Assembly (NCBI GenBank): GCA_021791145.1 | Contig: JAJYXE010000025.1 | Coordinates: 1 to 41,957, forward strand | Length of the DNA stretch: 41,957 bases | From: Actinomycetes bacterium | Lineage (GTDB): Bacteria; Actinomycetota; Acidimicrobiia; Acidimicrobiales; RAAP-2 | Direction of reading: 5' to 3' | Position numbers and translations under genes: made by a program | Notes under the pieces: generated by a model | Databases searched by the model: none | What the model saw: only the letters and a program-made list of their open reading frames with translations | Told to the model about the DNA's origin: nothing | Part shown: piece after piece, positions 2,645 to 41,957 of the stretch | Layout: every line of letters begins with the position of its first letter | Position numbering within the stretch: the stretch's first letter is position 1

Positions 2645-2676
2645 GTCGTGACCGAGGCGGTCGTTACCATGAGGCC

Positions 2677-3154: not shown

Positions 3155-3179
3155 TTCGCCATGCGATCGTGGGTACGAT
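3155..3179 (+). promoter_or_regulatory. Operator-like word and -10-like box before the 3212 gene
   Basis: TTCGCCATGCGATCG (3155-3169) differs at two of 15 positions from the palindromic word downstream of the promoter at 11034. It is followed by TACGAT (3174-3179), a TANNNT -10-type hexamer inside the small dyad GGGTA-CGA-TACCC. No good -35 is visible: TTGGAG at 3148 is 20 bp away. The operator similarity is seen in the sequence; regulation is inferred. Confidence 0.4.
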
Positions 3180-3211
3180 ACCCGAGCGATGGGAGCTTCC
3201 GAGGACGACGC

Positions 3212-4234
3212 GTGAGCTCGTCGATCGCCGTGGTCGGAGCAGGGACCATCGGCGTCGCCTGGTCGATCGTCTTTGCACGGGCGAAGCGTCCCGTCACGCT
3301 CTACGAGCCCGACGACGTGCGTCGGGAGCGCGCGCGCGAGGATCTCGAGCGGCGCCTGCGAGCGCTGGCAGAGCACGAGCTGCTCGACGAGGAGCCCGAG
3401 GAGGTCGGGGCGCGGGTTGCACTGGTCGGCGATCTCCGTATTGCGGCGCGCGGCGCGTCCTACGTCCAGGAGTGCGCTCCGGAGGATCTCGACCTGAAGC
3501 GAGGGGTGTTCCGAGAGCTCGAGGCGCTTGTTGCGCCGGACGCGGTGCTCGCCTCGTCTTCCTCGGCGATCCCGCCCTCGTCGCTCGCCCCGGCGGTCGA
3601 CGACCCGAGCCGGCTGCTGGTCGCCCATCCGGGCAACCCCCCCTACCTGCTCCCCGTCGTCGAGCTCGTCCCCTCGCCCCTCACCGACACCAGGACGCTC
3701 GATCGAGCCCACGCGCTGCTCGTCTCCGTGGGCATGTCCCCCGTCCGCCTCCGAAAGGAGGTCGAGGGGTTCGTCTTCAATCGGCTGCAAGGGGCGGTGC
3801 TGCGAGAGGCGTACTGCCTGGTGCGCGACGGCGTCGTCGATCCGCTCGACGTCGACAGGGTGGTGCGAGACGGCCTTGGGCGACGGTGGGCCTTCCTGGG
3901 GCCCTTCGAGACGGTCGCGCTCAACACCGAAGGCGGCATCGAGGCGCACGCGGCGCGCATGGGTCCCGCGTACGCCCGCATGGGGGCCGAGCGTGGCCAG
4001 GACGATCCGTGGACCGACGCGATGGTGACGCAGGTTGCCGGTGCCGTCGAGTCCCGTTTCCCCCGCGAGCGCTGGCGCGACCACGTGCTGTGGCGGGACT
4101 CGGCCTTGATGGCGCTCGAGGCGTTCCGCCGGCGCACGCCGCTGCTTTCTGGACCCGATGCGGTCGAGCAGGCGCACGACCAGCCCACCCAGGCCGTGCG
4201 ACGAGACGACGCGGGCAAAAGGAGCGACCGGTGA
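3212..4234 (+). CDS. 3-hydroxyacyl-CoA dehydrogenase-family enzyme, lambda-crystallin/carnitine dehydrogenase type
   Basis: 340-residue NAD-dependent L-3-hydroxyacid dehydrogenase. The Rossmann motif VVGAGTIG is at residues 7-14 and an SSSS segment follows the dinucleotide domain. HPGNPP at 139-144 is the catalytic His loop; the HPxNPP form, followed by PVVELVPSP, is typical of lambda-crystallin (L-gulonate 3-dehydrogenase) and carnitine dehydrogenase rather than fatty-acid FadB (HFFNP). EGFVFNRLQGAVLREA begins the C-terminal helical domain. The GTG at 3212 is chosen because the nucleotide-binding strand then starts at residue 5. An in-frame ATG at 3161 has a better GGAGG ribosome-binding site and cannot be excluded. 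The stop overlaps the next start (GTGA). The true substrate is unknown. Confidence 0.82.
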   Translation: MSSSIAVVGAGTIGVAWSIVFARAKRPVTLYEPDDVRRERAREDLERRLRALAEHELLDEEPEEVGARVALVGDLRIAARGASYVQECAPEDLDLKRGVFRELEALVAPDAVLASSSSAIPPSSLAPAVDDPSRLLVAHPGNPPYLLPVVELVPSPLTDTRTLDRAHALLVSVGMSPVRLRKEVEGFVFNRLQGAVLREAYCLVRDGVVDPLDVDRVVRDGLGRRWAFLGPFETVALNTEGGIEAHAARMGPAYARMGAERGQDDPWTDAMVTQVAGAVESRFPRERWRDHVLWRDSALMALEAFRRRTPLLSGPDAVEQAHDQPTQAVRRDDAGKRSDR

Positions 4235-5883
4235 GCACCGGGCACGGCCGCCTGGAGGAACGGATCCAGGAGCTCGGCAGCGCGTTCTGGACCTGGCGCG
4301 CCGCCGAGCAGCCGCGGACTCGCGACGACGTCCAGCGCATCGAACGGCCCGCCGGCTGGCTCCCGGACTGGAGCGCCGCCGCGATCGAGCGCTACCGGGC
4401 GCGGCTCGACGAGCTCGAGCTCGCCCACCGCTCGATCGAGATCGCAGGTGCGCCGGTCGAGTTGGTGGTCGACCACGCGCTGGTCGGGAGCGCGATCGCG
4501 CGTGCGCGCTTCGAGCTCGAGGTCCTCGAGCCCTGGCGTCGCCAGCCAAGCTTCTACGTGGACCAGACGCTCGGGGTGGTCTTCGATCTGCTCGTCGAGC
4601 ACCGTCCGTTCGACGCCGAGCGGGCGCGCAGCGTGCTGCACGCCCTGGACGCGACCGGACCGGTCCTGTCGGTCGCGCGCGAGAACCTTGCGGGCGAGGC
4701 CGTCGAGCCGTTCGCCGCGGTCACCGTCGACGAGCTCGGGCGCGTGGAAGAGCAGATCGCGGCCCTCCAGGAGGCGCTCGCACCTGCGTTCCCGGCGGAG
4801 CTGCGCGGTCGCCTGGAGACTGCGGCGAGTGGGGCTGCCAAGGCGCTCGGCTCCTACCGCGACTGGCTCGCAGCCGGCGGCGGTGGGTTGCGCAAGTGGC
4901 GTCCGATCGGCGAGGAAGCCCTCGGCCGGTTCCTTCGCGAGGTCGCCTTGGTGCCGTACTCTCCCGCTGAGCTGCTCGAGCTGGCACGGGTGGAGCACGC
5001 CAGGGCGGTTGCGCTGTCCGCGGCTGAGGCGACGCGTCCGCCGGCGAGCCATGGGAAGCTCGACGACCTGGAGCGGCTCGTACGCCGGGCCGCGGAGGAG
5101 GAGGCGGCCATCCGCGCCTTCTACGAAGCGCGCGGGATCCTGAGCCAGCCCGAGACGCTCGGCCACTACCTGATGGTGCCGATGCCCGCGTACCTCCAGG
5201 CGATCTCGTGGCTTGGCGTCACCGACGACCTCACCTCCGAGTCGCGCCTCGACGAGAACGGGGTCCGCTATCTGCCACCGGTCACCGACGACCTGCCGTA
5301 CTTCTTCGCAGCCAACGCTCGGGACCCCCGCTCCATGATCGTGCACGAGGGCGTCCACTATCAGCAGCTCGCGCTCTCGTGGCGCCATCCGGACCCTCTG
5401 CGGCGCCGCTACTACGACTCGTGCGCGAACGAAGGCATCGCCTTCTACCACGAGGAGATGATGCTGCAAGCGGGCTACTTCCCGGACAGCTCACCCACCA
5501 GGGCGGCGATCCTCTCCTTCATGCGCCTGCGCGCCCTGCGCGTGGAGGTGGACGTGCGGCTCGCGACCGGGGACATGACCCTCGCGGACGCTCGCGACTA
5601 CCTCGCATCCGCCGTGCCGATGGACACGGTTACGGCGGCAGAGGAGGCCGCGTCCTTCGCCGCCTCCCCTGGCCAGGGTCTCAGCTACCAGGTCGGCAAG
5701 CGCCAGATCCAGCGGCTCTTGGCCGACGCGGTGCGCGCCCAAGGGGACCGGTTCGACCTGCGGCGTTTCCACGACACGCTGTGGCTCAACGGCAATGTTC
5801 CCATCGAGCTGCAGCGCCTGGAGCTGCTCGGACCACAGACGACGGCACGAGCCCGACCGAGCGCCGAGACAGTCGGGAGCTGA
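4231..5883 (+). CDS. DUF885-family metallohydrolase
   Basis: 550-residue DUF885 protein, a family of gluzincin-like putative zinc carboxypeptidases. HEGVH (His372, Glu373, His376) is the HExxH zinc motif and NEGIAFYHEEMM supplies Glu401 as the expected third ligand, 25 residues downstream. No signal peptide is visible, so it should act in the cytoplasm. The GTG start overlaps the previous stop by four bases and has AAAAGGAG six bases upstream. It shares the locus with a second, divergent DUF885 protein (13324) and a peptide-type binding protein (11391), which suits peptide or amide hydrolysis. Substrate not known. Confidence 0.85.
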   Translation: MSTGHGRLEERIQELGSAFWTWRAAEQPRTRDDVQRIERPAGWLPDWSAAAIERYRARLDELELAHRSIEIAGAPVELVVDHALVGSAIARARFELEVLEPWRRQPSFYVDQTLGVVFDLLVEHRPFDAERARSVLHALDATGPVLSVARENLAGEAVEPFAAVTVDELGRVEEQIAALQEALAPAFPAELRGRLETAASGAAKALGSYRDWLAAGGGGLRKWRPIGEEALGRFLREVALVPYSPAELLELARVEHARAVALSAAEATRPPASHGKLDDLERLVRRAAEEEAAIRAFYEARGILSQPETLGHYLMVPMPAYLQAISWLGVTDDLTSESRLDENGVRYLPPVTDDLPYFFAANARDPRSMIVHEGVHYQQLALSWRHPDPLRRRYYDSCANEGIAFYHEEMMLQAGYFPDSSPTRAAILSFMRLRALRVEVDVRLATGDMTLADARDYLASAVPMDTVTAAEEAASFAASPGQGLSYQVGKRQIQRLLADAVRAQGDRFDLRRFHDTLWLNGNVPIELQRLELLGPQTTARARPSAETVGS

Positions 5884-5986
5884 GGCGACGTCGGTCTCCC
5901 CCGAGGCCCCGGTCCTCCTGCGACGCCGGCGTCCCGGGCCCCTTTCGGTCTCGGCGAGCGCGGACGGTCTTCGCCCGCACTTCGCC

Positions 5987-6015
5987 TTGACACGGGCGTG
6001 CGGCGCACTGAGAAT
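5987..6015 (+). promoter_or_regulatory. Sigma70-type promoter before the FAD/BFD oxidoreductase operon
   Basis: TTGACA (5987-5992), a 17-bp spacer and GAGAAT (6010-6015) form a near-consensus housekeeping promoter. Transcription would start near 6022 and leave about 170 bases of leader before the GTG at 6193. The 309-bp gap 5884-6192 holds no gene; it also has the palindrome GACGCCGGCGTC at 5922-5933 just after the DUF885 gene. Confidence 0.75.
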
Positions 6016-6043
6016 GGCTCATCGGAACTATGACGTACATTCG

Positions 6044-6072
6044 CTCGGCATGCGAACGCAATCGGGCGTTCG
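6044..6072 (+). promoter_or_regulatory. Operator-like word plus perfect hairpin just downstream of the promoter
   Basis: CTCGGCATGCGAACG (6044-6058) matches 12 of 15 bases of the palindromic word at 11086-11100. It overlaps a perfect dyad, CGAACGC (6053-6059) and GCGTTCG (6066-6072), with a six-base centre. The position, about 20-50 bases after the start site, suits a repressor site or an early RNA hairpin. Confidence 0.5.
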
Positions 6073-6192
6073 ACCGCACCAGCCCGAGCGCGCGCGAGGG
6101 GAGCGTCCCGTGACGCCTGCCCCCGCGCCTGCACCCGCGCCAGGTCGCAGCTTCACGCCGAGCGGCGTGCCTCGCACCTGCTGACGCCGACT

Positions 6193-7749
6193 GTGACGCT
6201 TGCCGGCACCCCCGTCCCCCCGCGTGCCGCCGGTCGCGGCGCGGGAGCGACCCGCGAGGTGGTGGACCTCTTGGTCGTCGGCGGAGGTCCGGCAGGTCTC
6301 AGCGCGGCGGCAGAAGCGGCGCACCACGGGCTGCGGGTCGTGCTCGTGGACGAGCGAGCGACCTTCGGCGGGCAGATCTACCGGCAGCCGGGCCCGGGCT
6401 TCGTCGTGCACGACGCACGACGCGTCGGACGTGACTATCTCCGCGGTGTGGTGCTGGTGGAAGCCGCGCGTCGCGCCGGCGCGGAGCTCCGTTGCCGGAC
6501 CAGCGTGTTGTCGCTGCGTGGGACCACCGCAGCGTGCCTCGCGGAAGGAGGCGCACGCGTCGAGCTCGTACGCGCGCGGCGGGTTCTCGTCGCTCCCGGG
6601 GCGACCGACCGACCGGTGCCGTTCCCCGGTTGGACGCTCCCTGGCGTCCTCACCGCAGGCGGTGCGCAGGCGCTCGTGAAGGCGTCGCGCGTCTCGCCGG
6701 GCAGCCGTCTCGTCTTCGCTGGCAGCGGTCCTCTCGCGCTGGCCTTCCCCGCGCAGTTGCGTCACTTGGGGGTGAACGTGGTGCTTGCGCTCGAGGCGGG
6801 CCCTGCCCCCCGGGCAGTCCGGGTGGCGGGGCTCCTTGCGGCGGGATGGGGGAACGCGACCTTGCTCCGCGACGCCCTCTCGTACCGCGCGCAGCTGCTC
6901 GCTGCGCGTGTGCCGCTGCGCTACCGGCGCATCGTCGTGCGGGCCGAAGGCGAGGACCGGCTCGAGGCCGTCGTCCACGCCGCGGTCGACGCCGAGTGGC
7001 GAGTGCTGCCCGGCTCCGAGGAACGCCTCGAGGTCGATACGTTGTGCGTCGGCTACGGCTTCGTCCCCTCCACCGAGCTGTTGCGGCTCGCAGGATGCCG
7101 TTTCGGCTACGACGAGGACCTGGGAGGGCTCGTGGTGGAGGTCGACGCCTGGCAGCGGACGAGCGTGGACGGGGTGCTCGCGGCAGGGGATGGGACCGGG
7201 GTGCGCGGCGCGCCGGTCGCGCTCGGGCAGGGTCGGCTGGCGGCCTTGGGGGCAGCCGCCGACCTCGGCGCGATCACCTGGGCGAGGGCGTACGAGCTGG
7301 CGCGTCCGCTCCGACGTCGACTGAGGGCAAAGGAGCGCTTCCGCCGTGCCCTCCGGCCCCTGTACGGGGTCGGTGCCGGGATCTATGAGCTCGCGACCCC
7401 CGAGACGGTGGTGTGCCGCTGCGAGGAGGTGACCATCGCCCGGCTCGAGCTGGCGCTGGACGCGACCGTCGACGTGGACGTCGTGAAGAGCTACACGCGC
7501 GCGGGGATGGGGCTCTGTCAGGGGCGGAACTGCCAGCGCCAGATCAGCGCGCTGCTGGCACGCCGGACGGGGGGTGGCACCGGCCCGGCCGGGGGCGGGC
7601 GCGGGAGGGCGCGTCCTGCTGGGGCGCTCTCCGACGCGCAGCTCGCGACGCTGGCAGGCACCACGCCGAGGCCGCCGGTTCGCCCTGCGCCGATCGGCGT
7701 GCTCGCTGACGACTCGGTGCCCGACCAGGGGTTGTTCGTCGGTGGGTGA
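6193..7749 (+). CDS. FAD/NAD-dependent oxidoreductase with BFD-like [2Fe-2S] domain (HcnB / hydroxyproline DH alpha type)
   Basis: 518-residue flavoprotein. GGGPAG at residues 30-35 starts the FAD Rossmann fold and DERATFGGQIYRQPG is the usual adjoining segment of HcnB-like subunits. A second dinucleotide fold follows the VFAGSGPLAL segment. The C-terminal domain carries Cys408, Cys410, Cys442 and Cys447 in CRCE...RAGMGLCQGRNC, the BFD-type [2Fe-2S] binding domain of this family. The protein ends with about 60 low-complexity residues. It heads the operon 6193-10957 and overlaps the next gene by 8 bases. With the DAO subunit at 7742 and the small [2Fe-2S] subunit at 2677 it should form an electron-transfer-linked amino/imino-acid dehydrogenase. 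The GTG start is uncertain by some 20 residues. Confidence 0.87.
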   Translation: MTLAGTPVPPRAAGRGAGATREVVDLLVVGGGPAGLSAAAEAAHHGLRVVLVDERATFGGQIYRQPGPGFVVHDARRVGRDYLRGVVLVEAARRAGAELRCRTSVLSLRGTTAACLAEGGARVELVRARRVLVAPGATDRPVPFPGWTLPGVLTAGGAQALVKASRVSPGSRLVFAGSGPLALAFPAQLRHLGVNVVLALEAGPAPRAVRVAGLLAAGWGNATLLRDALSYRAQLLAARVPLRYRRIVVRAEGEDRLEAVVHAAVDAEWRVLPGSEERLEVDTLCVGYGFVPSTELLRLAGCRFGYDEDLGGLVVEVDAWQRTSVDGVLAAGDGTGVRGAPVALGQGRLAALGAAADLGAITWARAYELARPLRRRLRAKERFRRALRPLYGVGAGIYELATPETVVCRCEEVTIARLELALDATVDVDVVKSYTRAGMGLCQGRNCQRQISALLARRTGGGTGPAGGGRGRARPAGALSDAQLATLAGTTPRPPVRPAPIGVLADDSVPDQGLFVGG

Positions 7750-9043
7750 CGGGCTGCTCGCTCCGAACGGTGCGCTCGCCCCTGGCGCCGGCGACGCCCG
7801 GCTCGGCATGCTGCTCCCGCATCGGCGGGACCTGGCAGCCGAGGTGCCCTCCGGTACCGACGTCGTGATCGTTGGCGGTGGTCTCGCCGGGTGCGCGCTC
7901 GCCTACTTCCTCGCGATCGCCGGGGTCGAGGTCGTGGTGCTCGAGCGCGCCGAGCTGAACCGGGAGGCGTCGGGGACCAACGCAGGAAGCTTCCACTTCC
8001 AGATCGCGATCCATCAGCTGACCGGTGCCGGCTGGGATGCCGACCGGGATCGCCTGCTCGACGACGTGCGCTTCATGGCGCGCGCCGCGGCCATGTGGAG
8101 GGACCTCGAGCGTGAGCTGCGCGCAGACCTCGGAGTGCACGTGACCGGCGGCCTCATGGTCGCCGAGACGCCCGAGCAGCTCGGGCTCCTCGTCGAAAAG
8201 CAGCGCATCGAGCGTGAAGGCGGCCTCGAGACCGAGGTGTTGACCGGCGCTGAGCTGCGCAGCTTCGCGCCGTACCTCGCCGAGGACCTGCTGGGTGCGA
8301 CGTACTGCCCGAGCGAGGGGTACGCCAATCCCCTGGTGACCGCGCCGGCGTTTGCCGCGCGCGCGCTCGAGGCGGGTGCTGCCGTCCGCACGCACGTGCC
8401 GGTCTCAGGGATCGAGCGGCTCGACGGGCATGCGAAAGGTGCGTGCTACGTCGTGCGCCACGCCCGCGGTGAGCTGCGCGCGCGTCGGGTGGTGAACGCC
8501 GCAGGTGCGTGGGCGCCCGAGGTCGCCCGAGGCAACGGGCTCAGGCTGCCGCTCCGTGCCGAAGGGCTGCACGTGAACGTCACCGAGCCGAGAGCGCGGC
8601 TGTTGCATCCCGTCATCCAGCACATCGGCAGGCGCCTCACGCTGAAGCAGTCCGCGAACGGCACCTTCATCATCGGGGGTGGATGGCCTGCCCGGCCGGA
8701 GCCATGGCCGGCGCGCTACTCGATCCGTTGGAGCTCGCTGGCCGGCAACGCCGCAGTCGCTCGCAGGGTGGTGCCCGCGCTCGGTGACGTCCGGGTCATC
8801 CACACGTGGGCCGGCGTGTGGGCGGGGAGCGAGGATCTCCTACCGGTCGTCGGCGAGTCGGCACGTCTCCCGGGCTACTTCACCTTCGTGGTGCCGACCG
8901 GCTTCACGCTGGGGCCGCTCATGGCCAGTCTTCTCGCAGAGCAGATGACCCGGAGCACGAACGTGGCGTTGCTGCCTTCGGAGTACGGCCCCGATCGCGT
9001 GCCTGCGTTCGCAAGCGGCGCGCACCGACGTGCGGTGGGTTGA
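7742..9043 (+). CDS. FAD-dependent DAO-family oxidoreductase (HcnC / hydroxyproline DH beta type)
   Basis: 433-residue D-amino-acid-oxidase-fold subunit. VIVGGGLAGCALAYFLA with GGGLAG at 45-50 binds the ADP of FAD; LEREA-like residues then lead to SGTNAGSFHFQ, a hallmark close to the xNAGSLHFQ of HcnC and related glycine/hydroxyproline oxidase subunits. A C-terminal PVVGES...GFTLGP segment closes the FAD site. GTG at 7742 is the start closest to the domain and lies inside the end of the upstream gene (8-base overlap), as expected for coupled subunits. In known enzymes this subunit oxidises the CH-NH bond and the partner subunits take the electrons. The exact substrate (hydroxyproline, proline, glycine or an opine) is inferred only from context. 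Confidence 0.87.
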   Translation: MGDGLLAPNGALAPGAGDARLGMLLPHRRDLAAEVPSGTDVVIVGGGLAGCALAYFLAIAGVEVVVLERAELNREASGTNAGSFHFQIAIHQLTGAGWDADRDRLLDDVRFMARAAAMWRDLERELRADLGVHVTGGLMVAETPEQLGLLVEKQRIEREGGLETEVLTGAELRSFAPYLAEDLLGATYCPSEGYANPLVTAPAFAARALEAGAAVRTHVPVSGIERLDGHAKGACYVVRHARGELRARRVVNAAGAWAPEVARGNGLRLPLRAEGLHVNVTEPRARLLHPVIQHIGRRLTLKQSANGTFIIGGGWPARPEPWPARYSIRWSSLAGNAAVARRVVPALGDVRVIHTWAGVWAGSEDLLPVVGESARLPGYFTFVVPTGFTLGPLMASLLAEQMTRSTNVALLPSEYGPDRVPAFASGAHRRAVG

Positions 9044-9062
9044 CGGGTCGAAAGGAGGAAGG

Positions 9063-9995
9063 ATGAACCGCGACGACGTCGAATGGAAAGGGTACTGGCC
9101 GTCGTGCCCGACCCCGTATCGCGACGGCGGGGAGAAGGTGGACTTGGACGCGCTCCGGGAGCTGCTCGAGTACTACGTGAGCTGCGGCTTCCACGGGGTG
9201 CTCGTGAACGGGACGGTCGGGGAGTGGTTCTCCCAGACCGAGGACGAGCGCCGCGCCGTGGCGGAGACCGCGGTCGACCAGGTCGCGCACCGCATGACCG
9301 TCGTCATCGGCTGCACCGGCTACACCGCCAAGGAGGTGGCCGCGTACGGGCGCCACGCGATGAGCTGCGGCGCCGACGGGGTGGAGGCGAGCGCGCCGCC
9401 GTACTCGAAGCCGTTCCCCGAGGAGATCGTCCAGTACTACCGGGACATCTCCGACGCGCTCGAGGCGCCACTGCTCGTGTACAACTGGCCGCACGGCACG
9501 AACGTCGACATCGGCCCGGACCTCTTCGAGCGGCTCGTCGCCATCGACAACGTCGTGGCGGTGAAGGACAGCACGCCCAACGCCGAGCAGTTCTACGAGA
9601 CGGCGCGCCGGGTGGTCGGTGACGCACGCGTCTTCGGGCCGTTCATGACGCTGCGAGGCCTCGACGTGCTGCGGACGAGCGGCGGTGACGGGTTCATCGG
9701 CGGCGGCAGCCTCTTCGGCCCCCCTGACGCGGCCTTCTGGGAGGACTTCTGGCGCGGGGATCTCGAACGGTGCGAGGCGCACGCTCGCCGGAGCGAGGAG
9801 CTGTTCCCCGCGTTGTGGCTCCCCGGAGGCTGGGCCGGGGTCCACGGCGCCTACCAGAGCGAGCTCAAGGCTGCGATGGCGATGCTCGGGCAGCCTGGAG
9901 GCACGGTGCGGCGACCCCGTCTCCCCATCACCGACGAGAGCGCGCTCGAGGAGATCCGGACTGCGCTCATTGGCGCGGGGTTGGTCGAACGATGA
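9063..9995 (+). CDS. Dihydrodipicolinate-synthase-family lyase/deaminase
   Basis: 310-residue DapA-family class I aldolase. Lys168 in VAVKDSTPN is the Schiff-base lysine and Tyr140 in VYNWPHG is the catalytic tyrosine. The carboxylate loop reads GTVGEW (50-55) where most members have GTTGE, so one of the paired threonines is Val. An excellent AAAGGAGG ribosome-binding site lies just upstream. In hydroxyproline degradation a DapA homologue acts as pyrroline-4-hydroxy-2-carboxylate deaminase right after the three-subunit dehydrogenase. That is the most likely job here, though other 2-keto-acid aldolase roles (KdgD-like) are possible. The last four bases overlap the next gene. Confidence 0.85.
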   Translation: MNRDDVEWKGYWPSCPTPYRDGGEKVDLDALRELLEYYVSCGFHGVLVNGTVGEWFSQTEDERRAVAETAVDQVAHRMTVVIGCTGYTAKEVAAYGRHAMSCGADGVEASAPPYSKPFPEEIVQYYRDISDALEAPLLVYNWPHGTNVDIGPDLFERLVAIDNVVAVKDSTPNAEQFYETARRVVGDARVFGPFMTLRGLDVLRTSGGDGFIGGGSLFGPPDAAFWEDFWRGDLERCEAHARRSEELFPALWLPGGWAGVHGAYQSELKAAMAMLGQPGGTVRRPRLPITDESALEEIRTALIGAGLVER

Positions 9996-10957
9996 GCGCG
10001 TCCGTCGACCAGAGCATTCGCTCGCTGTTCAAAGGGGTTGACCACGTCGGCGTCGGGGTCGGGGACATGGACTCGGCTCTCGAGTGGTTCGCGCGTTCGC
10101 TCGGTTTCTCCGAGGTGCTCTTCGACTACACCGGTGAGCTGCCGGGGCTCGAGGAGCTGACCCGCCGGCGTCGCACTCGTGCCCGGGTGGCGATGCTCGC
10201 GAGTCCGTTCGCCACGCCGATCGGGCCGGGGCGGATCAAGCTCGTCCAGGTCCTCGAAGACGGCGGCACCCCACCGCTCCCCGGCGACGCGGGCTGGGGT
10301 GAGCTGGGCATCTGCGAGGTGTGCGTGCACGCCCGGGACGTCCCTGCCGTGCACGCGCAACTCGTCGCCGAGCACGGGTGCGTCGAGCTGATGGAGCCGG
10401 TGAGCGCGAAGGTGACCCCGTACGACCTGGACGTGGACCTCTCCTACGTCGCCGACCCCGAGGGCGGCAAGGTCGAGGTCCTCGAGTGGAAGGGGCTGTG
10501 GCGATCCTTGCCTGGCGAGCCACGCCTCGAGGGTGTGAACCACGTCGCGTTCGGTGTCTCGGACATGTCGGCCACGCGCGAGTTCTACGGCAGCCTCGGC
10601 TTCGCCCACCTCGTCTTGGAGAGCGATGGCTACTTCGAGCCGATGCGCCCGTGGTACCCGAGGGAGATGCCTCGTCAGCACATGATCCTCGTCCTCCCAG
10701 GGCAGGGTGCCGGCATCGAGCCGGTGCGGCTCCACCCCGAGACCCTCGATCGGCGAGGGGAGTGGGGGCATCGGGGCCCGATGGAGTTCGCGATCGGCGT
10801 GTCGAACCTGGATCGCGCCTACGAGCACCTCCGGCGCGCCGGGGTGCAGTTCCGCAGCGATCCGCAGCTCGTCGACGTCGGCACCGGCGAGTGGCGGTTC
10901 GCGTACTTCGAGGACCCCGACGGCCTCTACGTCTCGCTGGTCGAGGCGCGCTACTGA
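9992..10957 (+). CDS. Two-domain VOC (glyoxalase/dioxygenase) family protein
   Basis: 321-residue protein with two vicinal-oxygen-chelate modules. The first begins at VDHVGVGVGDMDSALEWF and ends near GGKVEVLEWKG; the second begins at VNHVAFGVSDMSATREFYGS and ends FAYFEDPDGLYVSLVEAR. Each module starts with the metal-binding His of the fold and ends in a Glu-containing strand (VEVLEW, VSLVEA), so at least one metal site looks intact. The start overlaps the aldolase stop (ATGA), placing it last in the operon 6193-10957. Enzymes of this type can be lyases, epimerases or extradiol-like dioxygenases; the reaction cannot be chosen from sequence alone. Confidence 0.82.
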   Translation: MSASVDQSIRSLFKGVDHVGVGVGDMDSALEWFARSLGFSEVLFDYTGELPGLEELTRRRRTRARVAMLASPFATPIGPGRIKLVQVLEDGGTPPLPGDAGWGELGICEVCVHARDVPAVHAQLVAEHGCVELMEPVSAKVTPYDLDVDLSYVADPEGGKVEVLEWKGLWRSLPGEPRLEGVNHVAFGVSDMSATREFYGSLGFAHLVLESDGYFEPMRPWYPREMPRQHMILVLPGQGAGIEPVRLHPETLDRRGEWGHRGPMEFAIGVSNLDRAYEHLRRAGVQFRSDPQLVDVGTGEWRFAYFEDPDGLYVSLVEARY

Positions 10958-27427: not shown

Positions 27428-28633
27428 CTATGCGCCGACGAGCGCCGGGTCGTCGGGGCGGGCGTCGAGGCGCAGCTCCTGCCCCTCGACGACGGTCCGG
27501 TAGGCCGCCTCGTAGCCGGCGACCATCCGGGACACGTCGAAGCATCTCGCGGCGCGGGCCCGGCATCTGCGGCGGTCCAGGGTCTCGACGGCACCGACCG
27601 CGGCCACGAGCTCCTCTGGCGTGTCGACCACGATCCCCGTCTCGCCGTGCGCGACGACCTCGGGGACGCTGCCACGGCGCAGCGCGACGACCGGCGTCCC
27701 GCAGGCCATCGCCTCGACCATGACGAGGCCGAAGGGCTCCTCCCAGAGCACCGGGAAGAGCAGCGCGCTCGCGCTCCCGAGCAGCTCCCGTTTCGTGGCG
27801 GCGTCCGCCTCGCCGACGTACTCGACCAGGCCGCCGAGCCGAGGGGCGACGGCGGCGTCGAAGTACGCCCGCTCGGGCGGCTCGTTCAGCTTGCCGGCGA
27901 GGAGGAGCCGGCGTCCCGTGCGCCGGGCGACCTCGATGGCGACATGCGCACCCTTGTCAGGACTGAAGCGGCCGAGGAAGAGCAGGTAGCCCCCGTCGCC
28001 TGCGCCCAGCGGATAGGACGCCACGTCGATCCCGTTGTGGACGGTCGCGAGCCAGTTCACCTCCGGGCGCAGCCGGCGCTGGGCCGCCGAGATGGCGACG
28101 ACGTCGACGGTGGCACCCAGGCGGGTGAGGTAGTCGCCGGGCTCGCCGGTCACCGGTCCGTGGGCGGTCACCACCGTGGGGACCCCCCGCCCCCGGGCGA
28201 GCAGCGGGCCCGCCAGGGTGTGGTCGTGGACGACGTCGAGCTCCGCAGCGCCGAGGGCCTCGGCCGCGGCGGCCGCATGGAGCACCTCGGGCACCGGCTC
28301 ACCGAGACGGGAAGAGGGCGGCTCGGGGTAGGAGGCGACGTAGCGCTGGGCGGTGGTGCCGGGCGCACCGGCTCCGACGAGCGTCACGTGGTGGCCCCGG
28401 GCGACGAGGCCGTCGACCAGCCCGGCGACCATCGCCTCGATGCCGCCGTAGCCGGCGGGGGGGACCCTGAACCACGGCGGGGCGATCATCCCGATCCGCA
28501 ACTGCCTGCTGGCGTCCGCAACTTCTGTACCCGCCAACCTGGCAGTCCTTGCCGAGCTCACCGAGCCCGTCGATCCGACGGGACCCACCGATCGCGCCGA
28601 GTCGCGCGCACGCTGGGGTGCCGACGTCGCCAT
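27428..28633 (-). CDS. GT4-family glycosyltransferase
   Basis: 401-residue GT-B glycosyltransferase. The acceptor-side fold starts with IGMIAPPWFRVPPAGYGGIE (about residues 47-66), the PPxGYGGIE loop typical of a GT4 subgroup often called with trehalose/mannosyl transferases. The donor side has FLGRFSPDKGAH at about 219-230, and the EX7E motif is Glu299-Glu307 in EEPFGLVMVEAMACGTPVV. No membrane segment. ATG at 28633 is preferred because GAGGAGGG stands nine bases before it; the frame continues upstream only through repeats. Substrates are unknown, most likely a nucleotide sugar and a lipid or small glycan. No co-transcribed gene: its neighbours are separated by several hundred bases. Confidence 0.88.
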   Translation of the reverse strand: MATSAPQRARDSARSVGPVGSTGSVSSARTARLAGTEVADASRQLRIGMIAPPWFRVPPAGYGGIEAMVAGLVDGLVARGHHVTLVGAGAPGTTAQRYVASYPEPPSSRLGEPVPEVLHAAAAAEALGAAELDVVHDHTLAGPLLARGRGVPTVVTAHGPVTGEPGDYLTRLGATVDVVAISAAQRRLRPEVNWLATVHNGIDVASYPLGAGDGGYLLFLGRFSPDKGAHVAIEVARRTGRRLLLAGKLNEPPERAYFDAAVAPRLGGLVEYVGEADAATKRELLGSASALLFPVLWEEPFGLVMVEAMACGTPVVALRRGSVPEVVAHGETGIVVDTPEELVAAVGAVETLDRRRCRARAARCFDVSRMVAGYEAAYRTVVEGQELRLDARPDDPALVGA

Positions 28634-28765
28634 CTCGATGTCCCTCCTCGGTCCTTCCAACGATCGTTCCAACAATCTCCGGTCGTCCATCGCGGTCGCC
28701 GGTGGGGTGCGCTCGGCCCGAGCCCGCCGGCGACGGCTCGTTCCTGACGCCATGCCGTCGGCTGC

Positions 28766-28829
28766 GCCGAACAGCGACTGTGCCGAACACCGGCTGTGCT
28801 GAACAACAACTGTGCCGAACAGTGACTGT
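28766..28829. repeat. Four tandem 16-bp repeats upstream of the GT4 gene
   Basis: Exact 16-bp periodicity: GCCGAACAGCGACTGT (28766-28781), GCCGAACACCGGCTGT (28782-28797), GCTGAACAACAACTGT (28798-28813), GCCGAACAGTGACTGT (28814-28829), then a decaying GCCAAGAA. The constant part is GCYGAACA at the left and CTGT at the right. The last unit contains the dyad ACAGT-G-ACTGT, and unit junctions give TGT-N5-ACA. The array lies 133-196 bp before the GT4 start and 36 bp after the vapC stop. The rest of the gap 28634-28864 has no gene. Confidence 0.85.
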
Positions 28830-28864
28830 GCCAAGAAATTGATATGCAATGACGGGGCATCCCG

Positions 28865-30861: not shown

Positions 30862-31326
30862 TCACCGTCCGCTGCACAGTAGGGAGCGCTCGCTGCGACC
30901 GATACGGGGCACGCCGGTCATCGGGCCCGAGCTGGCAACCGAGATGATCGCCGTGTCGGGAGCTGACAAAGCCCGAGCAGGGCGGGCGCCCCAGACGCAC
31001 GCGAGAACTCGTGCTGTGGGTGCCTTTTTCTCGATGTGGGCGGGCACCGCGCAGTCGCCAATTCGGCTGCGGTAGGTGTCGCGACGGTGGTCGATGTCGA
31101 GCACGTAGACAGTCCGGGTCTCGCCGTCGATACGGTAGCGGACCCGGTGCTCGCCACGGCGAGCCCGCCATTGCCCTTCGAAGGGTTTGTGCAGCGGTGC
31201 GCACTCGGCGGGGTCTTCCGCGAGCGGGCCGAAGACGAGCTCGATGCACGCCGCGGCGACTGGTTCGGGCAGGCTCTCGGCCAGGCGCCGCGCCGCGCTA
31301 CGGGCCACGACGACCCGGTGGTTCAC
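30862..31326 (-). CDS. RelE/ParE-superfamily toxin with long C-terminal extension
   Basis: 154-residue protein whose first 88 residues are a normal RelE-like toxin: VVVARSAARRLAESLP at the start, FEGQWRARRGEHRVRYRID in the middle, and VYVLDIDHRRDTYRSR at the usual C-terminus, with the basic residues of the family's active site. About 66 further residues follow (GDCAVPAHIEKKAP...), which typical RelE proteins lack and which look like read-through of noncoding sequence after loss of the original stop. GTG start overlaps the antitoxin stop (GTGA). RelE toxins cut mRNA on the ribosome. Whether the extended form is active is unclear. Confidence 0.82.
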   Translation of the reverse strand: MNHRVVVARSAARRLAESLPEPVAAACIELVFGPLAEDPAECAPLHKPFEGQWRARRGEHRVRYRIDGETRTVYVLDIDHRRDTYRSRIGDCAVPAHIEKKAPTARVLACVWGARPARALSAPDTAIISVASSGPMTGVPRIGRSERSLLCSGR

Positions 31327-31610
31327 CGGGGCTGCTCGTGACGGTGGCGGGAGACGAGATCCCGGACTGCTCGCTCGTCGAGCACCTCGCCCGCTGCGAT
31401 GTCCGCGTCTGCTGCCCGTAGGCGGTCCTGGGTGTCGGGGTCGGCGAGCAGCTCGAGAGTGGCCTCGACCGACTCGAGGTCCTCGGCGGCGAGGAGCACC
31501 ACGTGCTCACGCCCGCTCTTGGTGATCTGGACCCGCTTGTGGGTGGTCGCCACCTCTTCGGCGATCTCGGACAGCCGAGCTTTCATCTGGGACAGCGGCA
31601 ATATCTTCAT
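31323..31610 (-). CDS. Phd/YefM-family antitoxin
   Basis: 95-residue antitoxin. MKILPLSQMKARLSEIAEEV is the DNA-binding N-terminal part, TTHKRVQITKSGREHVVLLAAEDLESVEATLELL the end of the Phd/YefM fold, and the C-terminal acidic region would wrap the toxin. It precedes the RelE-like toxin with a four-base overlap, in the standard antitoxin-first order. A TCTAAT box about 10 bases before the ATG suggests a nearly leaderless transcript, because no ribosome-binding site is present. Unlike the antitoxin at 29287 this one is complete. Confidence 0.9.
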   Translation of the reverse strand: MKILPLSQMKARLSEIAEEVATTHKRVQITKSGREHVVLLAAEDLESVEATLELLADPDTQDRLRAADADIAAGEVLDERAVRDLVSRHRHEQPR

Positions 31611-35184: not shown

Positions 35185-35210
35185 CGGAGTAGTTGAAGGG
35201 GACTATCTCT

Positions 35211-37043
35211 GTGGGCAACCGATTAGGACGCGTCGGGCGCGTGCTTGTGCGGTTCGCGCGGGCGAACCCGGTCGCGAGTGTCATCATCGTCCTGGTTGTC
35301 GCTGGTGTTGGTGTGAGTGCAGGGATCGCCGGCGGCTCAACAACGGCTGCCCTCACTAGCTGTGGTTACGGCTACGGAAGCTCGTGCACAACGCCGCTTC
35401 CCGTTTCGCCTGCGGCTCCCGCGACATCGACCGCCACCGCCTCCGGGACGTCGAGCTCCCCGTCGGGATCGACCGGGACAATCGTGAGCAAGGACCCCTC
35501 CACCGGCACCACCTTGACGGTCGACGCCTCGGGCAAGGGAGCAGTCACGATCGCGCAGCTCACCGCTGCGCCGAAGCCCACGTCGTCGACGCTCACAGTC
35601 GGCGCGCTCGTGGACATCCAGGTGGCTTCGGGGAGCACATTCACCAAGCTCACAGTGAAGGTCTGCGGGACGAAGGTCGGCACCGCTATCCAGTGGTTCG
35701 AGACACCTCCAGGGGCGTGGGAGGCAGTGGCGCCCTCGTCGGGGCCGACGCTCTCCCCCGGCACACCGCCGTGTGTGACCTTCACCCTGACGGCCACCTC
35801 CACGCCATCCATCTCCCAGCTGACCGGTACGGCGTTCGCCGTCGGCACGCCGGTCACCCCGCGGATCCCGAGTATCCCGACTACCGTCACCGCCGTCTAC
35901 GGCCCGACAGCCGACGCGACCGCGGCCGCCGAGCTCACCCGGGCGTTCCCCTACACGAAGGGCGTCTGCCCGCCGGGGCGTGAGGCGGTCCTCGCCTCGA
36001 CAGGGGAGTACCAAGACGCGCTCGCGAGCCAGTTCCTCGCGCAGGACCTCCGGACCGGGACGCTCCTCACCCCGACGACGAGCCTCGCGAACGTGACCGC
36101 CACGACGCTCAGGGAAGAAGGCGTGAAGACCGTCTACATCGTGGGCGGCCCGCTCGCGATCACCCCGGCGGTGGCCGACGCGATCGAGCGTCTCACAGCC
36201 TACGAGTGCGGTGGGGCGACGCGGTCGGGGTCCACAGGCAAGGTCGTCGTGCGTCGCATCGCCGGGCGGACCCAGTACGCGACCGCGATGGAGGTGGCCG
36301 AGCGCGTGAGCTCCGCCGCCGCGAAGGCCTTCCCCGGCGCCTACTCGACGAGGAACCCCACAGGTGGCACGGGCCGCTACAACGACACCGCGGGAAGCAG
36401 CTCGGCCGCCCCGAAGGGCGCGGTGCCGACGGCCATCCTGGCGAGCGGAGAGGAGTTCCAGGACGCGCAGGCGGCGAGCGTCGTCTCCTACCGCACAAAG
36501 CTCCCGATGCTGCTCACCCCGAGCTCGACGCTGTCCGCGACAGCGGTCGCAGCCGTCCGGAAGCTCCACGTGAAGCAGGTGATCTTGATGGGCGGCCCGC
36601 TCGCCGTCACGAGCACCGTCGAGGCGGCGCTCGTCGCGGAGACCGGCGTCGCGGTGCTCCGTGTGGCCGGGAAGGACTACACCGACACGGCGCTCGAGCT
36701 GGCCAGGTTCGAAGCCGCGGAGGCCCCAGACGGCCTCGGGTGGACATTCGGCCACCGGGTGATGGTCGCCCGCGGTGACGGGTTCACCGACGGCCTGGCC
36801 GGCGCGGTGCTCGACAGTCCGCACAGCATCGCGACAGGGTCTTCCGGCACCGCCCGCCCGCTCCTGCTCACGAAGAGCCCGGCGTCGCTCGGAGCGTCCC
36901 TCACCAAGTTCCTGGAGGTCACAGGGCACACAGGGGTCGACAGGATCGCGTCCAAGACCATCACGGGCCTGACCGTCCTCGGTGGGCCGAAAGCGGTCAG
37001 CACGTCGGAGATCGCGGCGATACAGACAGACCTCGCCCACTGA
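35211..37043 (+). CDS. Cell-wall-binding repeat 2 (CWB2) surface protein
   Basis: 610-residue exported protein. One N-terminal hydrophobic segment, VASVIIVLVVAGVGVSAGIA (about 24-43), acts as signal or anchor. A Ser/Thr/Pro-rich linker follows (about 70-110), then a domain of about 120 residues with several Thr-rich strands. The C-terminal 370 residues are three CWB2 repeats, each with the hallmark turn: VYIVGGPLAITPAV (Gly312), VILMGGPLAVTSTV (Gly461) and LTVLGGPKAVSTSE (Gly591). CWB2 modules anchor proteins non-covalently to cell-wall polymers. GTG at 35211 has GAAGGGG nine bases upstream. The gene lies between two glycan-related membrane genes, so its product may bind the polymer they make. 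ACA and GACA codons are noticeably frequent compared with neighbours. Confidence 0.85.
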   Translation: MGNRLGRVGRVLVRFARANPVASVIIVLVVAGVGVSAGIAGGSTTAALTSCGYGYGSSCTTPLPVSPAAPATSTATASGTSSSPSGSTGTIVSKDPSTGTTLTVDASGKGAVTIAQLTAAPKPTSSTLTVGALVDIQVASGSTFTKLTVKVCGTKVGTAIQWFETPPGAWEAVAPSSGPTLSPGTPPCVTFTLTATSTPSISQLTGTAFAVGTPVTPRIPSIPTTVTAVYGPTADATAAAELTRAFPYTKGVCPPGREAVLASTGEYQDALASQFLAQDLRTGTLLTPTTSLANVTATTLREEGVKTVYIVGGPLAITPAVADAIERLTAYECGGATRSGSTGKVVVRRIAGRTQYATAMEVAERVSSAAAKAFPGAYSTRNPTGGTGRYNDTAGSSSAAPKGAVPTAILASGEEFQDAQAASVVSYRTKLPMLLTPSSTLSATAVAAVRKLHVKQVILMGGPLAVTSTVEAALVAETGVAVLRVAGKDYTDTALELARFEAAEAPDGLGWTFGHRVMVARGDGFTDGLAGAVLDSPHSIATGSSGTARPLLLTKSPASLGASLTKFLEVTGHTGVDRIASKTITGLTVLGGPKAVSTSEIAAIQTDLAH

Positions 37044-37556: not shown

Positions 37557-40500
37557 GTGCCGAGCCAGCAGACAGCCGTGCGAACGAGCGGTTCATCGTT
37601 GACTGAACCCGTAGTGTCCCTCGGGGGAGGTCCCTCTCCACAGGAGCGTCCCTCGTGCCTACGTGCCCGCTTCGCGTCCCCGCTGTCGGGGCCGGGAGCG
37701 GTCTCGTTCGTCGTCGCGACCGCTGGCGTCGGAGTGTCGAACTTCGTCTTCCACGTCGTCAGCTCGCGTCTCCTCGGACCTTCCTACTACGGAGGGCTTG
37801 GCGCGCTGTTGAACGTCCTCACTCTTTTGGCAGTGCCGCTCGGTGCGGTGCAGCTCGCGGTCACCCAGGCGGTAGTCCGAAGGCGCGAGCAAGGGCGTCC
37901 AAGCCCGATCGGGCGTCTCACGGGCCAGGGCGCCCTCGGGGGATTGCTGGGCGCCGGGGTGCTCGTAGCGGTCGCTCCGGTGTTCTCCGGTTTCTTGCAC
38001 CTCCACTCGGCGCTCGCCGTGTTCGTGCTCGCAGCGTGGTTGCCCCTCGCGTCGGCTGGGTCCGTGCTCCAGGGCGCGCTCATCGGCGAGCTGCGGTTCA
38101 AGCCCGTCGCGCTCGCGAGCTTCCTCGGAGGCGGGCCGGTGCGCCTCGGGCTGGGCGCCGCGCTCATTTTCGTCGGCGGCGGCGTGGCCGGCGCGATCGG
38201 AGCGACGGTCGGTGCCCAGACCGTGACGACCCTCCTCCTCGTGAAGGCCGCCAGGGCGTCGCTCTCCAAGGGCAGCGATCAGCTCCAAGCGCCGCTCAGC
38301 GATACGGCCGTCTCGGTGCTCGCGCTCGGTGGCTACACGGTGCTCACCGGTATCGACACGTTCCTCGCGCAGCACTTCTTGGCTGCGGTGTCCGCCGGCC
38401 AGTACGCAGCGGCAGCGACCGCGGGCCACGTCGCGCTCTTCTTGCCCGGAGCCGTCGTGATGGTCGCGTTTCCACAACTCGCCGAAGGTCGGGGTCGCTC
38501 TGCACGCAGCCGCACGGCGCTCGGACAGGCGTTCGTGTTCACCTCGGCGCTGGGGCTCGCCGCAGCAGGCGTGCTCGTCTTGTTTGCACCTCGAGTGGTC
38601 GAGATTCTTTTTGGGCGCGCCTATCAGCCCGCCGCAAGCGCGGTGGGCATCTTGGGGCTCGAATCCGCGGTGCTCGGCCTCGTGGGCCTTCTGACCTACT
38701 TCCACATCGCGCGGCGCTCGCGGGTGGCCCTCCTGCCGTGGGCAGGCGGCGCGCTCGCTGCCGGAACGGTCGCACTCTTCCACGGAGGCCTCGTCTCCAT
38801 CGCCATGGGGATGCTCGTCGTGGCCGCGGTCGTGCTCGCAGCAGAGCTCGCTCCAGCGCTCGGCGCGCTCGTACGTTCCGTTGCGAGCGAGAGAGCCGTC
38901 CCGGTGCCCGCAGCCCGTCTCTGCGAAGCTCCGACGCTCGACCTGACCGTCGTGGTGCCCTTCTACAACCCCGGGCCGCGCTTTGCGGCGCATCTCGGTC
39001 AGGTCGTCGACGCCCTCGAGGCAACCGGGGCAACGTTCGAAGTGCTCGCGGTGTCCGATGGGAGCACCGACGGAAGCCCCGCGCTCGCCGAAGGACTTCG
39101 CCCCGACGTCCTCCGAGTGATCAGCTTCGACGAGAACCAAGGCAAAGGTGCCGCACTGCGGGCGGGGTTCGACGCCGGGCACGGCCGCTGGCTCGGCTTC
39201 ATCGACGGTGACGGTGACCTCCCCGGCGCGTTGCTCACGCGCTTCGTCGAGATGGTGATGACCGAGGAGCCCGATGTGCTGCTCGGGAGCAAGCGCCATC
39301 CGACATCGCGGGTCGAGTACCCGCCGTTGCGTCGGCTCTACTCGAGGGCCTACCAGCTGTTGAACTGGGCGCTCTTCAGCCTGCCGGTACGCGACACGCA
39401 GACGGGGGTCAAGTTCGTGCGGCGCGAGGTCCTCGCCGACGTCCTGCCGAGGATGCTCGAGAAGCGCTACGCGTTCGATCTCGAGCTCCTCGTCGTCGCG
39501 TCGCACCTGGGGTACCGGCGGTTCGTGGAGGCGCCGGTCACCGTCCTCGAGCGCTTCACGAGCACGATCTCGCTTCGCGCGGTGTGGCACATGCTGATCG
39601 ACACCCTGGCCATCTTCTATCGCCTGCGCGTGCTCCACCACTACGGCGCAGGTGCTGCCCAGCTGCCCTTCCCGGTGTCGCCGGCACTGGCGGCGCCCGC
39701 GGGCGCCGGGCGGCAGGCGGACGCCGTGGGGACCGAGCGCGTGCACGAGGAGACCACGCCGCGCCTGCGGATCCTCATCTGCAACTGGAAGGACACCGCC
39801 CACCCGCGCGCGGGCGGTGCCGAGGTCTACACGGCGGCGCTCGCCGGAGAGTGGGTCCGTGAGGGTCATTCCGTCACGCTCTTCTGCGCGGCGGTACGCG
39901 GGCGCCCGGAAGTCGAAGACGTCGACGGCGTCCGAATCGTGCGACGCGGTGGCCGGTTCGGCGTCTACCGTGCCGCTCGCCGGTTCTTCGAGGAAGCCGG
40001 TGGCGCGTTCGATCTCGTCGTCGACGAGGTCAACACTCGCCCGTTCTTCTGTCCGCGGTTCGCTCGAGGCGTGCCGGTCGTGGCGCTCGTCCACCAGGTC
40101 TGCCGGGAGGTGTGGGACTGCGAGCTGCCCTGGCCGCTCTCCTGGCTCGGCAGGCGCGTCCTGGAGCCGCGCTGGCTGGCCACCTACCGCGACGTCCCCG
40201 TCGTCACGGTGTCCGAGTCGAGCAGATCGGCCCTCGAAGCTTACTACGGGTTGCGCCGTGTGACCGTGGTGTCGCCGGGACAGCTCTCCGCCCTCGTGCA
40301 GGCGCGCGAGGCACCCGCGGATCGGGAGCCCGTGCCCACCGTCGTCTTCGTCGGCAGGCTCTCGCGCAGCAAGCAGGCCGACCAGGCCCTCCGAGCCTTC
40401 GAGATCTACCGACGTCTCGCCCCCGAGGCGCAGATGTGGGTCATCGGCACCGGACCCGAGGAGTCGAGGCTGAAGCGCCTGGCATCACCGGGTGTCAGGT

Positions 40501-41957
40501 TCCTCGGCCGAGTGAGCGAGGAGGAGAAGCTCGACCGGCTGGCTCGAGCGGACGTCCTGGTCGCCACCTCGGTGCGCGAGGGCTGGGGCCTCGTCGTGAG
40601 CGAAGCCGCCGCGGCCGGCACGCCGACCGTGGCCTACGACGTCCCCGGACTGCGCGACTCGGTCTCCGCGTCCGGTGGCGTCCTCACTGGGGCGGATCCT
40701 TCGGCGCTCGCGGATGTCCTCGCCCGGTACGTCCCGATCTGGCGCGCCGCGCCGCGCCCTGTGCTCGGGGTCGCGGCGCGGGGCCTCCTTCCCTGGGGTG
40801 AGGTCGCCGCTCGGGTGCTCGCAGCCGCACAGGACGTGCCCGCACGAGCCACGGTGCGCTTCGGAGCGCGGCGCCGAACGAGGATTGGCGCGCTCATCCC
40901 GGCGATGGAGCGCGCGGGCAGGGTCCTCGCGTGGCTTGGTGTCGCCGGCGTCGTGGGCCTCGGGGTGCTCGATGGGCGGTCGCCCGACGCAGTGGTCGCT
41001 GCGATCGCGACGGCCGCGCTTGCCGGAACGGTGCTCCTGGGTGTGGTGGTCACCAGCAAACGCCGAGATCGGACAGGTACCCCTGTTGGAGCACGCGACG
41101 AGATCTCGATCCAATCGACTGCACCTTCGCCGGGTGGATGGACGGGCGCGGCGGCCGTCGCCTCGATCGCCATGGTCGCCGCCCAGACCTGGTTCGCCGG
41201 CGGCGCTGCGATCGGAGGAGGCGACCTCACGCCGCCCTACGGTCTCGCGTGGACGCACCACCTGTTCGCCGCGTGGGTCTGGGGCGGTTCGAACCTCGGC
41301 GGCCCCGGCGCCCTCGAGGTGCAGGCCCCGTGGGCCGCGGTGCTGCTCCTCGTCCACGCGCTCGGCGGCGGCGCGCCGTTGGCACAGCGGGTCTGGCTCA
41401 CCTCGCTCTACGCGGCGGCAGGCCTGTCTGCGTACGCGCTCTTGCGGCTCCTTCGGCTGGGGGCCGTCGCGAGCGTGATCGGGGCGCTCGTGTACCTCTT
41501 CAACCCCTACACGCTCTCCACCGTCGGGGTGAACGCGGTCTACCTGTGCGCGATGGTGCTCCTCGCGGCGTACCCGGCGATCGTCCTTGCGGTCGCGACC
41601 GGTCGTTGGAGGCTGCGTACCGGTGTGGTGCTGTTCGCCATCGGGAGCCCGCTCATCGGCTACGCCTACCAGAACCCGCCGCTCGTGCTCATGGTGGCGG
41701 CAGCCACGGTCGTCGCCGCGCTCGGCGCATGGTGGGTCTTCAGAGGCCAAGCCCTGCGGCGCGCGGCGCGGCTCCTCGGCTCTGGGGTGCCGGTCCTCGC
41801 GCTCGCGTGCGCGTACTGGATCGTCCCATCTTGGCTGCAGCTCCACTCGGTCGCGACCCGGCAGCTCTCCTCGCTGTCGAGCTGGACGTGGACGGAAGGC
41901 CGGGCCAACCTGGCCAACGGCCTGTGGCTCAATACCACCTGGGGATGGCGCTACGCC
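37557..41957 (+). CDS. Giant four-module envelope glycan protein: flippase - GT2 - GT4 - AftD-like GT-C (3' end outside window)
   Basis: One frame is open without a stop from 37476 to the last base, giving at least 1,467 codons from the GTG at 37557 (AGGAG eight bases upstream; GTG 37614 is an alternative). Residues about 45-440 are a polytopic Wzx/MATE-like flippase, starting VSNFVFHVVSSRLLGPSYYG. From 463, LTVVVPFYNPG opens a GT2 domain of the polyprenyl-phosphate glycosyltransferase kind, with DGSTDGS at 501 and DGDGD at 550-554, and TQTGVKFVRREVL. From 737, LRILICNWKDTAHPRAGGAE opens a GT4 domain with VFVGRLSRSKQ and EX7E residues Glu1008 and Glu1016. From about 1117 membrane segments begin a GT-C module resembling AftD-type arabinofuranosyltransferases, with LVYLFNPYTLSTVGVN and LANGLWLNTTWGW. 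I know the single modules well, but not this four-way fusion. It would join lipid-linked sugar activation, transfer, flipping and outer-face transfer in one polypeptide. Confidence 0.85.
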   Translation, partial: MPSQQTAVRTSGSSLTEPVVSLGGGPSPQERPSCLRARFASPLSGPGAVSFVVATAGVGVSNFVFHVVSSRLLGPSYYGGLGALLNVLTLLAVPLGAVQLAVTQAVVRRREQGRPSPIGRLTGQGALGGLLGAGVLVAVAPVFSGFLHLHSALAVFVLAAWLPLASAGSVLQGALIGELRFKPVALASFLGGGPVRLGLGAALIFVGGGVAGAIGATVGAQTVTTLLLVKAARASLSKGSDQLQAPLSDTAVSVLALGGYTVLTGIDTFLAQHFLAAVSAGQYAAAATAGHVALFLPGAVVMVAFPQLAEGRGRSARSRTALGQAFVFTSALGLAAAGVLVLFAPRVVEILFGRAYQPAASAVGILGLESAVLGLVGLLTYFHIARRSRVALLPWAGGALAAGTVALFHGGLVSIAMGMLVVAAVVLAAELAPALGALVRSVASERAVPVPAARLCEAPTLDLTVVVPFYNPGPRFAAHLGQVVDALEATGATFEVLAVSDGSTDGSPALAEGLRPDVLRVISFDENQGKGAALRAGFDAGHGRWLGFIDGDGDLPGALLTRFVEMVMTEEPDVLLGSKRHPTSRVEYPPLRRLYSRAYQLLNWALFSLPVRDTQTGVKFVRREVLADVLPRMLEKRYAFDLELLVVASHLGYRRFVEAPVTVLERFTSTISLRAVWHMLIDTLAIFYRLRVLHHYGAGAAQLPFPVSPALAAPAGAGRQADAVGTERVHEETTPRLRILICNWKDTAHPRAGGAEVYTAALAGEWVREGHSVTLFCAAVRGRPEVEDVDGVRIVRRGGRFGVYRAARRFFEEAGGAFDLVVDEVNTRPFFCPRFARGVPVVALVHQVCREVWDCELPWPLSWLGRRVLEPRWLATYRDVPVVTVSESSRSALEAYYGLRRVTVVSPGQLSALVQAREAPADREPVPTVVFVGRLSRSKQADQALRAFEIYRRLAPEAQMWVIGTGPEESRLKRLASPGVRFLGRVSEEEKLDRLARADVLVATSVREGWGLVVSEAAAAGTPTVAYDVPGLRDSVSASGGVLTGADPSALADVLARYVPIWRAAPRPVLGVAARGLLPWGEVAARVLAAAQDVPARATVRFGARRRTRIGALIPAMERAGRVLAWLGVAGVVGLGVLDGRSPDAVVAAIATAALAGTVLLGVVVTSKRRDRTGTPVGARDEISIQSTAPSPGGWTGAAAVASIAMVAAQTWFAGGAAIGGGDLTPPYGLAWTHHLFAAWVWGGSNLGGPGALEVQAPWAAVLLLVHALGGGAPLAQRVWLTSLYAAAGLSAYALLRLLRLGAVASVIGALVYLFNPYTLSTVGVNAVYLCAMVLLAAYPAIVLAVATGRWRLRTGVVLFAIGSPLIGYAYQNPPLVLMVAAATVVAALGAWWVFRGQALRRAARLLGSGVPVLALACAYWIVPSWLQLHSVATRQLSSLSSWTWTEGRANLANGLWLNTTWGWRYA

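Follow-up and report, generated by a model that had tools for sequence, protein, structure and literature searches.

At the 3' end of a 41,957-nucleotide stretch of DNA from an Actinomycetes bacterium (contig JAJYXE010000025.1; the whole stretch is called the window below) lies a long gene that joins four modules, usually found as separate proteins, in one open frame: a flippase of the MOP superfamily, two glycosyltransferases (GTs) of families GT2 and GT4, and the first part of an AftD-like GT-C enzyme (Table 1). The last in-frame stop before it is at 37473 and none follows up to 41957, in agreement with an earlier note on this DNA that had found the frame free of stops from 37476 to the end of the window. 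That note began the gene at 37557, and the first start listed for the open reading frame (ORF) is a GTG at 37539; because two orthologues, P0145 and P0148, have their first residue aligned with residue 21 of the window protein (P0001), the probable start is instead the TTG at 37599. A third orthologue, P0146, begins at residue 7.

Table 1. Features of the four-module gene and its upstream neighbor (window coordinates)
Feature	Position	Strand	Remarks
Four-module gene	37599..41957	+	Probable TTG start; 3' end past the window
MOP-superfamily flippase module	37674..38873	+	PF13440; fold match to MATE/MOP (6gwh, 4mlb)
GT2 module	38931..39653	+	ArnC/GtrB/DPM-synthase-like; motifs DGS, DGDGD, DTQTG
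GT2-GT4 linker	39654..39764	+	Low model confidence; gene boundary in split relatives, e.g. L001
GT4 module	39765..40838	+	Retaining, GT-B type; EX7E at residues 1014/1022
GT4 inter-domain hinge	40266..40328	+	In some relatives one protein ends and the next starts here
GT4 to GT-C junction	40839..41138	+	Two hydrophobic segments
AftD-like GT-C module	41139..41957	+	N-terminal 273 residues only; conserved loop Asp at 41223
Upstream surface protein	35193..37043	+	N-terminal R-A-N-P, hydrophobic segment, CGYGYG, then CWB2 cell-wall-binding repeats

In DNA of 70% guanine plus cytosine (GC), the absence of stops is by itself weak evidence for a gene; an antisense frame there also stays open for 942 codons, and in 200 simple base shuffles the longest open run averaged 225 codons, with a maximum of 471. 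Three other lines of evidence together establish that the fusion is real. First, codon-position bias extends over the whole frame, with a GC content of 0.42-0.65 at the middle position versus 0.74-0.93 at the third in 14 steps of 300 nucleotides from 37600 to 41500, and of 0.62 and 0.91 in the last, partial step. Second, Pfam domains were detected above their curated cut-offs (PF13440 at residues 76-366, PF00535 at 470-635, PF13439 at 759-914 and PF00534/PF13692 at about 926-1063), the last 400 residues of the incomplete window protein being free of Pfam matches. Third, P0145, P0146 and P0148 are 83-88% identical to the window protein over 1453-1467 residues, and are complete and fused at every junction. 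Comparison with them indicates that about 700 residues of the C-terminus lie past the window, where the earlier note had placed it. That missed stops or frameshifts joined four separate genes in this contig only is a highly improbable explanation, which we reject on the independent fused sequences; relatives are split at the same places and the GT4 hinge of the window differs slightly from that of its orthologues, but the orthologues themselves, the unbroken codon bias and 21 four-module database proteins contradict it.

The four-module order is one predicted polypeptide in sequences independent of this contig. A search of 298 genomes from the order of L001, a locus described below (two candidates scored per genome), led to G097, where one 2173-codon frame spans query residues 50-1472. 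Among the 17 genomes of its family, G306 and G309 are also fused, and in G232 and G252 the chain reaches the contig end after or within the GT4. A protein database search with the G097 GT-C region returned 49 matches of 1187-2199 residues from 7993 candidates scored. With module profiles made here, all four modules were recognized in 25 of 280 proteins: those of the window, G097, G306 and G309, and the 21 from the database, one of which (P0133) is nearly identical to the G097 protein and is dropped from the 24 fused proteins counted below. At E <= 1e-40, and with two candidates scored per genome, a sample of 397 genomes from the order contained eight with a GT-C of this subfamily. The domain search and the hunt for the same architecture that the earlier note had proposed thus bear out its naming of the four modules, their order and their place on a single polypeptide, and homologues occur both fused and split at the junctions it listed. 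The first two of these, at about residues 450 and 725, fall within the ranges obtained here (445-465 and 705-742), while the third, given as about 1100, is better placed at 1100-1200.

Other combinations were also seen. L078 5703-8609 (G297), P0152, P0159 and P0160 carry flippase-GT4, flippase-GT4-GT-C without GT2, or flippase-GT2 with a weak GT4 and a short GT-C, and in P0153 and P0157 a precomputed PF05050 match places an FkbM methyltransferase domain on one chain with a GT-C of this family. In P0010 and P0011 the flippase is preceded by about 550-640 residues that could pass for an extra N-terminal domain; by eye these look like translated non-coding DNA from ahead of the start, and the domain was discarded.

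Each module retains the hallmarks of its family. The flippase scores 37.8 bits with PF13440 (cut-off 23), and superposes on both 4mlb and 6gwh with a TM-score of 0.69 on target length. For the GT2 (PF00535, 78 bits versus a cut-off of 23.3), the nearest solved relatives are GtrB sll0501 and ArnC by sequence, and ArnC by fold; five checked residues are identical, and the DxD kept, in 24/24 fused proteins. Both Rossmann halves of the GT4 (PF13439 and PF00534) exceed their cut-offs, and its fold matches are MshA and PimB'. Of the two motifs that the earlier note had singled out, DGDGD is present in the GT2 of the window and EX7E in the GT4 of all 24 proteins, and the only checked residue of either enzyme that varies is one GT4 His (23/24).

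The identity of the GT-C rests chiefly on its relatives. PF11847 (AftD) is detected in the orthologues P0145 (38.4 bits) and P0148 (55.2 bits) against a cut-off of 26, and does not score in the incomplete window protein or in the more distant P0002. A profile built from the relatives' GT-C matches only AftD in the PDB, and the AftD fold, including the outer beta domains, is present in this family, at about 19% identity over the aligned part. Oligosaccharyltransferase (OST) chains are the next-ranked matches, behind the two best AftD entries. The conserved Asp is retained in 22/24 fused proteins, the exceptions being G309 and P0158. A hydrophobic stretch comparable, by eye, to that at the GT4 to GT-C junction precedes the GT-C of L001.

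In other relatives the same parts are distributed over several genes. L001, from a metagenome-assembled genome (MAG) named as Actinomycetes and covering most of the query, encodes them separately in the order flippase-GT2, GT4, second GT2, GT-C. In six of 12 fetched flippase-GT2 loci (L001, L068, L069, L071, L074 and L080), the gene that follows encodes a GT4 of this type, and two of these loci (L001 and L080) also have the GT-C. A different division was found in a set of proteins, some named Streptosporangiaceae or Trebonia (P0177-P0238 and P0023-P0054), that are known from protein sequences alone; with two candidates scored per genome, samples of 296 and of 386 genomes from the phylum did not yield their DNA. 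Here the cut falls at the hinge of the GT4, with 45 of 49 flippase-GT2-GT4N proteins ending at the same hinge residues and 16 of 18 GT4C-GT-C proteins beginning there. Seven N-half/C-half pairs come from contigs whose sizes, up to 1,333,851 bases, are exactly equal within each pair, and presumably share a contig. Since the ends and starts coincide and the contig sizes match, these relatives probably divide one GT-B enzyme between two proteins. We favor two genes with a 4-nucleotide overlap over a programmed frameshift at the hinge because 7/7 contig-matched pairs fit, a weak test given that 25/42 mismatched pairs allow an overlap of at least 10 nucleotides.

Fused and split forms alternate in the predicted phylogeny of the flippase-GT2 part, a quick tree with long branches made from 73 rows, themselves a chosen part of those available. 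Its fused or split labels follow the database ORFs, and contig ends may have truncated some of these. Four-module proteins occupy at least three separate parts of the tree. On 63 rows, after removal of ten long-branch or cut rows, the approximately unbiased (AU) test rejected a single clade for all fused forms (p-AU 9e-6), and with it a single origin of the fusion. One clade for the 12 hinge-split rows was likewise rejected (p 3e-5); they sit in one large part of the tree, intermixed with fused and other forms.

We consider it fairly probable that this single chain forms a complete lipid-carrier glycosylation system. At the inner face of the membrane, the GT2 would load a sugar onto polyprenyl phosphate, and the GT4, on the same face, would extend that lipid, or a neighboring glycolipid, by a further sugar. 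The MOP module would then move the lipid-linked sugar across the membrane, where the AftD-like GT-C, its conserved Asp placed in the first outer loop, would transfer it to an outside acceptor held by the sugar-binding-like domain at the GT-C C-terminus. The fusion would set the parts at 1:1, and may let an intermediate be passed on without release. The substrates, the activity and the course 'made, extended, flipped and attached', which echoes the earlier note, are inferred.

Several observations weigh against this reading. A sequence search of the PDB with the flippase part gave no matches, the relative placement of the first three modules in the predicted structure is uncertain (pTM 0.46), and the profile match to AftD spans just 170/1060 profile positions. 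The parts are not always together, since in the remaining six of the 12 flippase-GT2 loci the next gene is not of this GT4 type and most have no GT-C. Nor does fusion always keep all four modules complete: the fused GT-C is shortened in G306 and, in G309 (L114 about 1397-10735), is shortened, has Ala at the Asp site and lacks the outer domain, an intact stand-alone GT-C with the Asp being the second gene downstream, after another GT2. A GT4 acting on a polyprenyl-phosphate sugar would, moreover, be unusual in bacteria.

A further point against it concerns the donor. A homologue of decaprenyl-phosphate phosphoribosyltransferase (DPPR synthase) exceeds its curated cut-off in six of seven genomes, including all five with flippase-GT2-GT4 on one chain, so that the GT-C may take its sugar from a pentofuranose donor that the GT2 does not supply. 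The chain would then hold two pathways, the GT2, GT4 and flippase building and exporting a glycolipid and the GT-C decorating the product with decaprenyl-phosphate arabinose or ribose made elsewhere. The kinship of the GT-C with AftD, whose donor derives from the phosphoribosyl route, fits such a division. AftD is an arabinosyltransferase according to the available text of PMC6034362. Yet the homologue also occurs in 59/118 sampled genomes of the order and is thus not specific, and G001, where the parts are separate genes, has no match, a weak absence in a MAG. We regard two pathways as possible and clearly less likely than a single system fed by its own GT2.

The acceptor may be encoded nearby. 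A gene for a hydrophobic segment plus a GY-rich stretch, like the surface protein of Table 1, lies at most 4.5 kb upstream in seven of the 14 flippase places whose upstream sequence reaches 3.9 kb or more (the window, L068, L069, L071, L073, L074 and L082), and in 0/5 flippase-only loci and 0/50 overlapping background stretches; in these counts L078 appears twice, L082 is cut within the GT2, start positions are approximate and the motif was chosen after the first cases. Six further places with too little upstream sequence gave none. The seven proteins have a similar N-terminus, with a basic residue first, and differing bodies, and N-P precedes the hydrophobic segment in six of them, L068 having N-A. 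The neighboring surface protein is thus a possible acceptor or partner, and no more. This association, together with the resemblance of the GT-C to OST chains, would suit en bloc glycosylation, in which the carrier would hold a short glycan during its assembly and flipping, and the GT-C would pass it whole to the GY-rich protein. We hold this to be unlikely, as no such gene turned up ahead of G097 or of six more places, the bodies differ, L068 lacks N-P, the motif was picked after cases had been seen and no sequon is known.

Other neighbors of such genes were noted. In the window, a Phd/YefM antitoxin and ParE toxin pair (30862-31610) and a separate GT4-type glycosyltransferase gene (27428-28849) lie on the minus strand. 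In L075 (2-984; G027), a GmhA-like gene truncated by the end of the contig and a GmhB-like HAD phosphatase stand directly upstream of GT4/GT-C. A heptose as the sugar was considered and set aside, since in this one locus the GmhA-like protein scores 151 bits against a cut-off of 209 and the phosphatase 133.5 bits against 178 for the GmhB model, the latter passing only the broader HAD and histidinol-phosphatase domain models.

Taken furthest, the single lipid-carrier system would be an assembly line that primes, extends, flips and transfers a sugar on one polypeptide without releasing intermediates, perhaps onto the neighboring surface protein; in some relatives the cut would fall inside the GT-B enzyme, which two membrane proteins would restore, each carrying one half joined to different pathway steps, so that the complex would be obligatory. 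We offer this fuller picture tentatively. How flippases and GT-C enzymes come by their lipid-linked substrates is hard to study, the parts being separate and their contacts transient, and a natural single chain provides a fixed complex for structural work, while relatives cut at the junctions and inside one enzyme form a natural series for hand-over tests. The fused protein also opens a route to the uncharacterized surface glycans of little-studied actinobacteria. Such a fusion is not described in the literature searched (titles and abstract openings, with subscription journals mostly outside coverage), which is consistent with the earlier note, whose author knew of no described protein with this order; the sequences themselves are already in databases under automatic, domain-listing names.

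Multi-component, or three-component, transmembrane glycosylation systems offer the closest comparison, and include, in the available text of the sources, CsbB-GtcA-YfhO, GacI-GacK-GacL, GtrB-GtrA-GtrX and Citrobacter ORF15-ORF14-ORF12 (PMC8035078; PMC11127046). As portrayed there, they likewise combine a polyprenyl-phosphate loading enzyme, a flippase (of Wzx type in GacK) and a GT-C, but as separate proteins, whereas here one chain holds all of these and an extra GT4; the Citrobacter loading enzyme is a phosphoribose synthase rather than a GT2. The lipid-carrier GT, flippase and GT-C are encoded together in the family studied here, on one chain in the window and in adjacent genes in L001; that the GT-C uses a lipid-sugar made by its partner GT2 we only infer. 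In the galactosamine route of Mycobacterium tuberculosis, according to the available text of PMC3485146, a GT2 (Rv3631, PpgS) makes a lipid-linked sugar used by Rv3779. Rv3630, Rv3631 and Rv3779 are separate genes, and the GT2 of the window, at 37.5 bits against the curated cut-off of 370 for NF058614, is not a PpgS equivalog. We take Rv3630 to be the flippase and Rv3779 the GT-C. AftD (PF11847; 6w98, 6wbx) shares its GT-C fold and outer beta domains with the window family, but is a separate protein, in contrast to a GT-C fused to a flippase-GT2-GT4 chain. Fusions of GT2 with GtrA are common in annotations. The capsule multienzyme of Actinobacillus pleuropneumoniae (8qoy; Foldseek row 5) places several polymer-making domains on one chain, as here, presumably with neither flippase nor GT-C.
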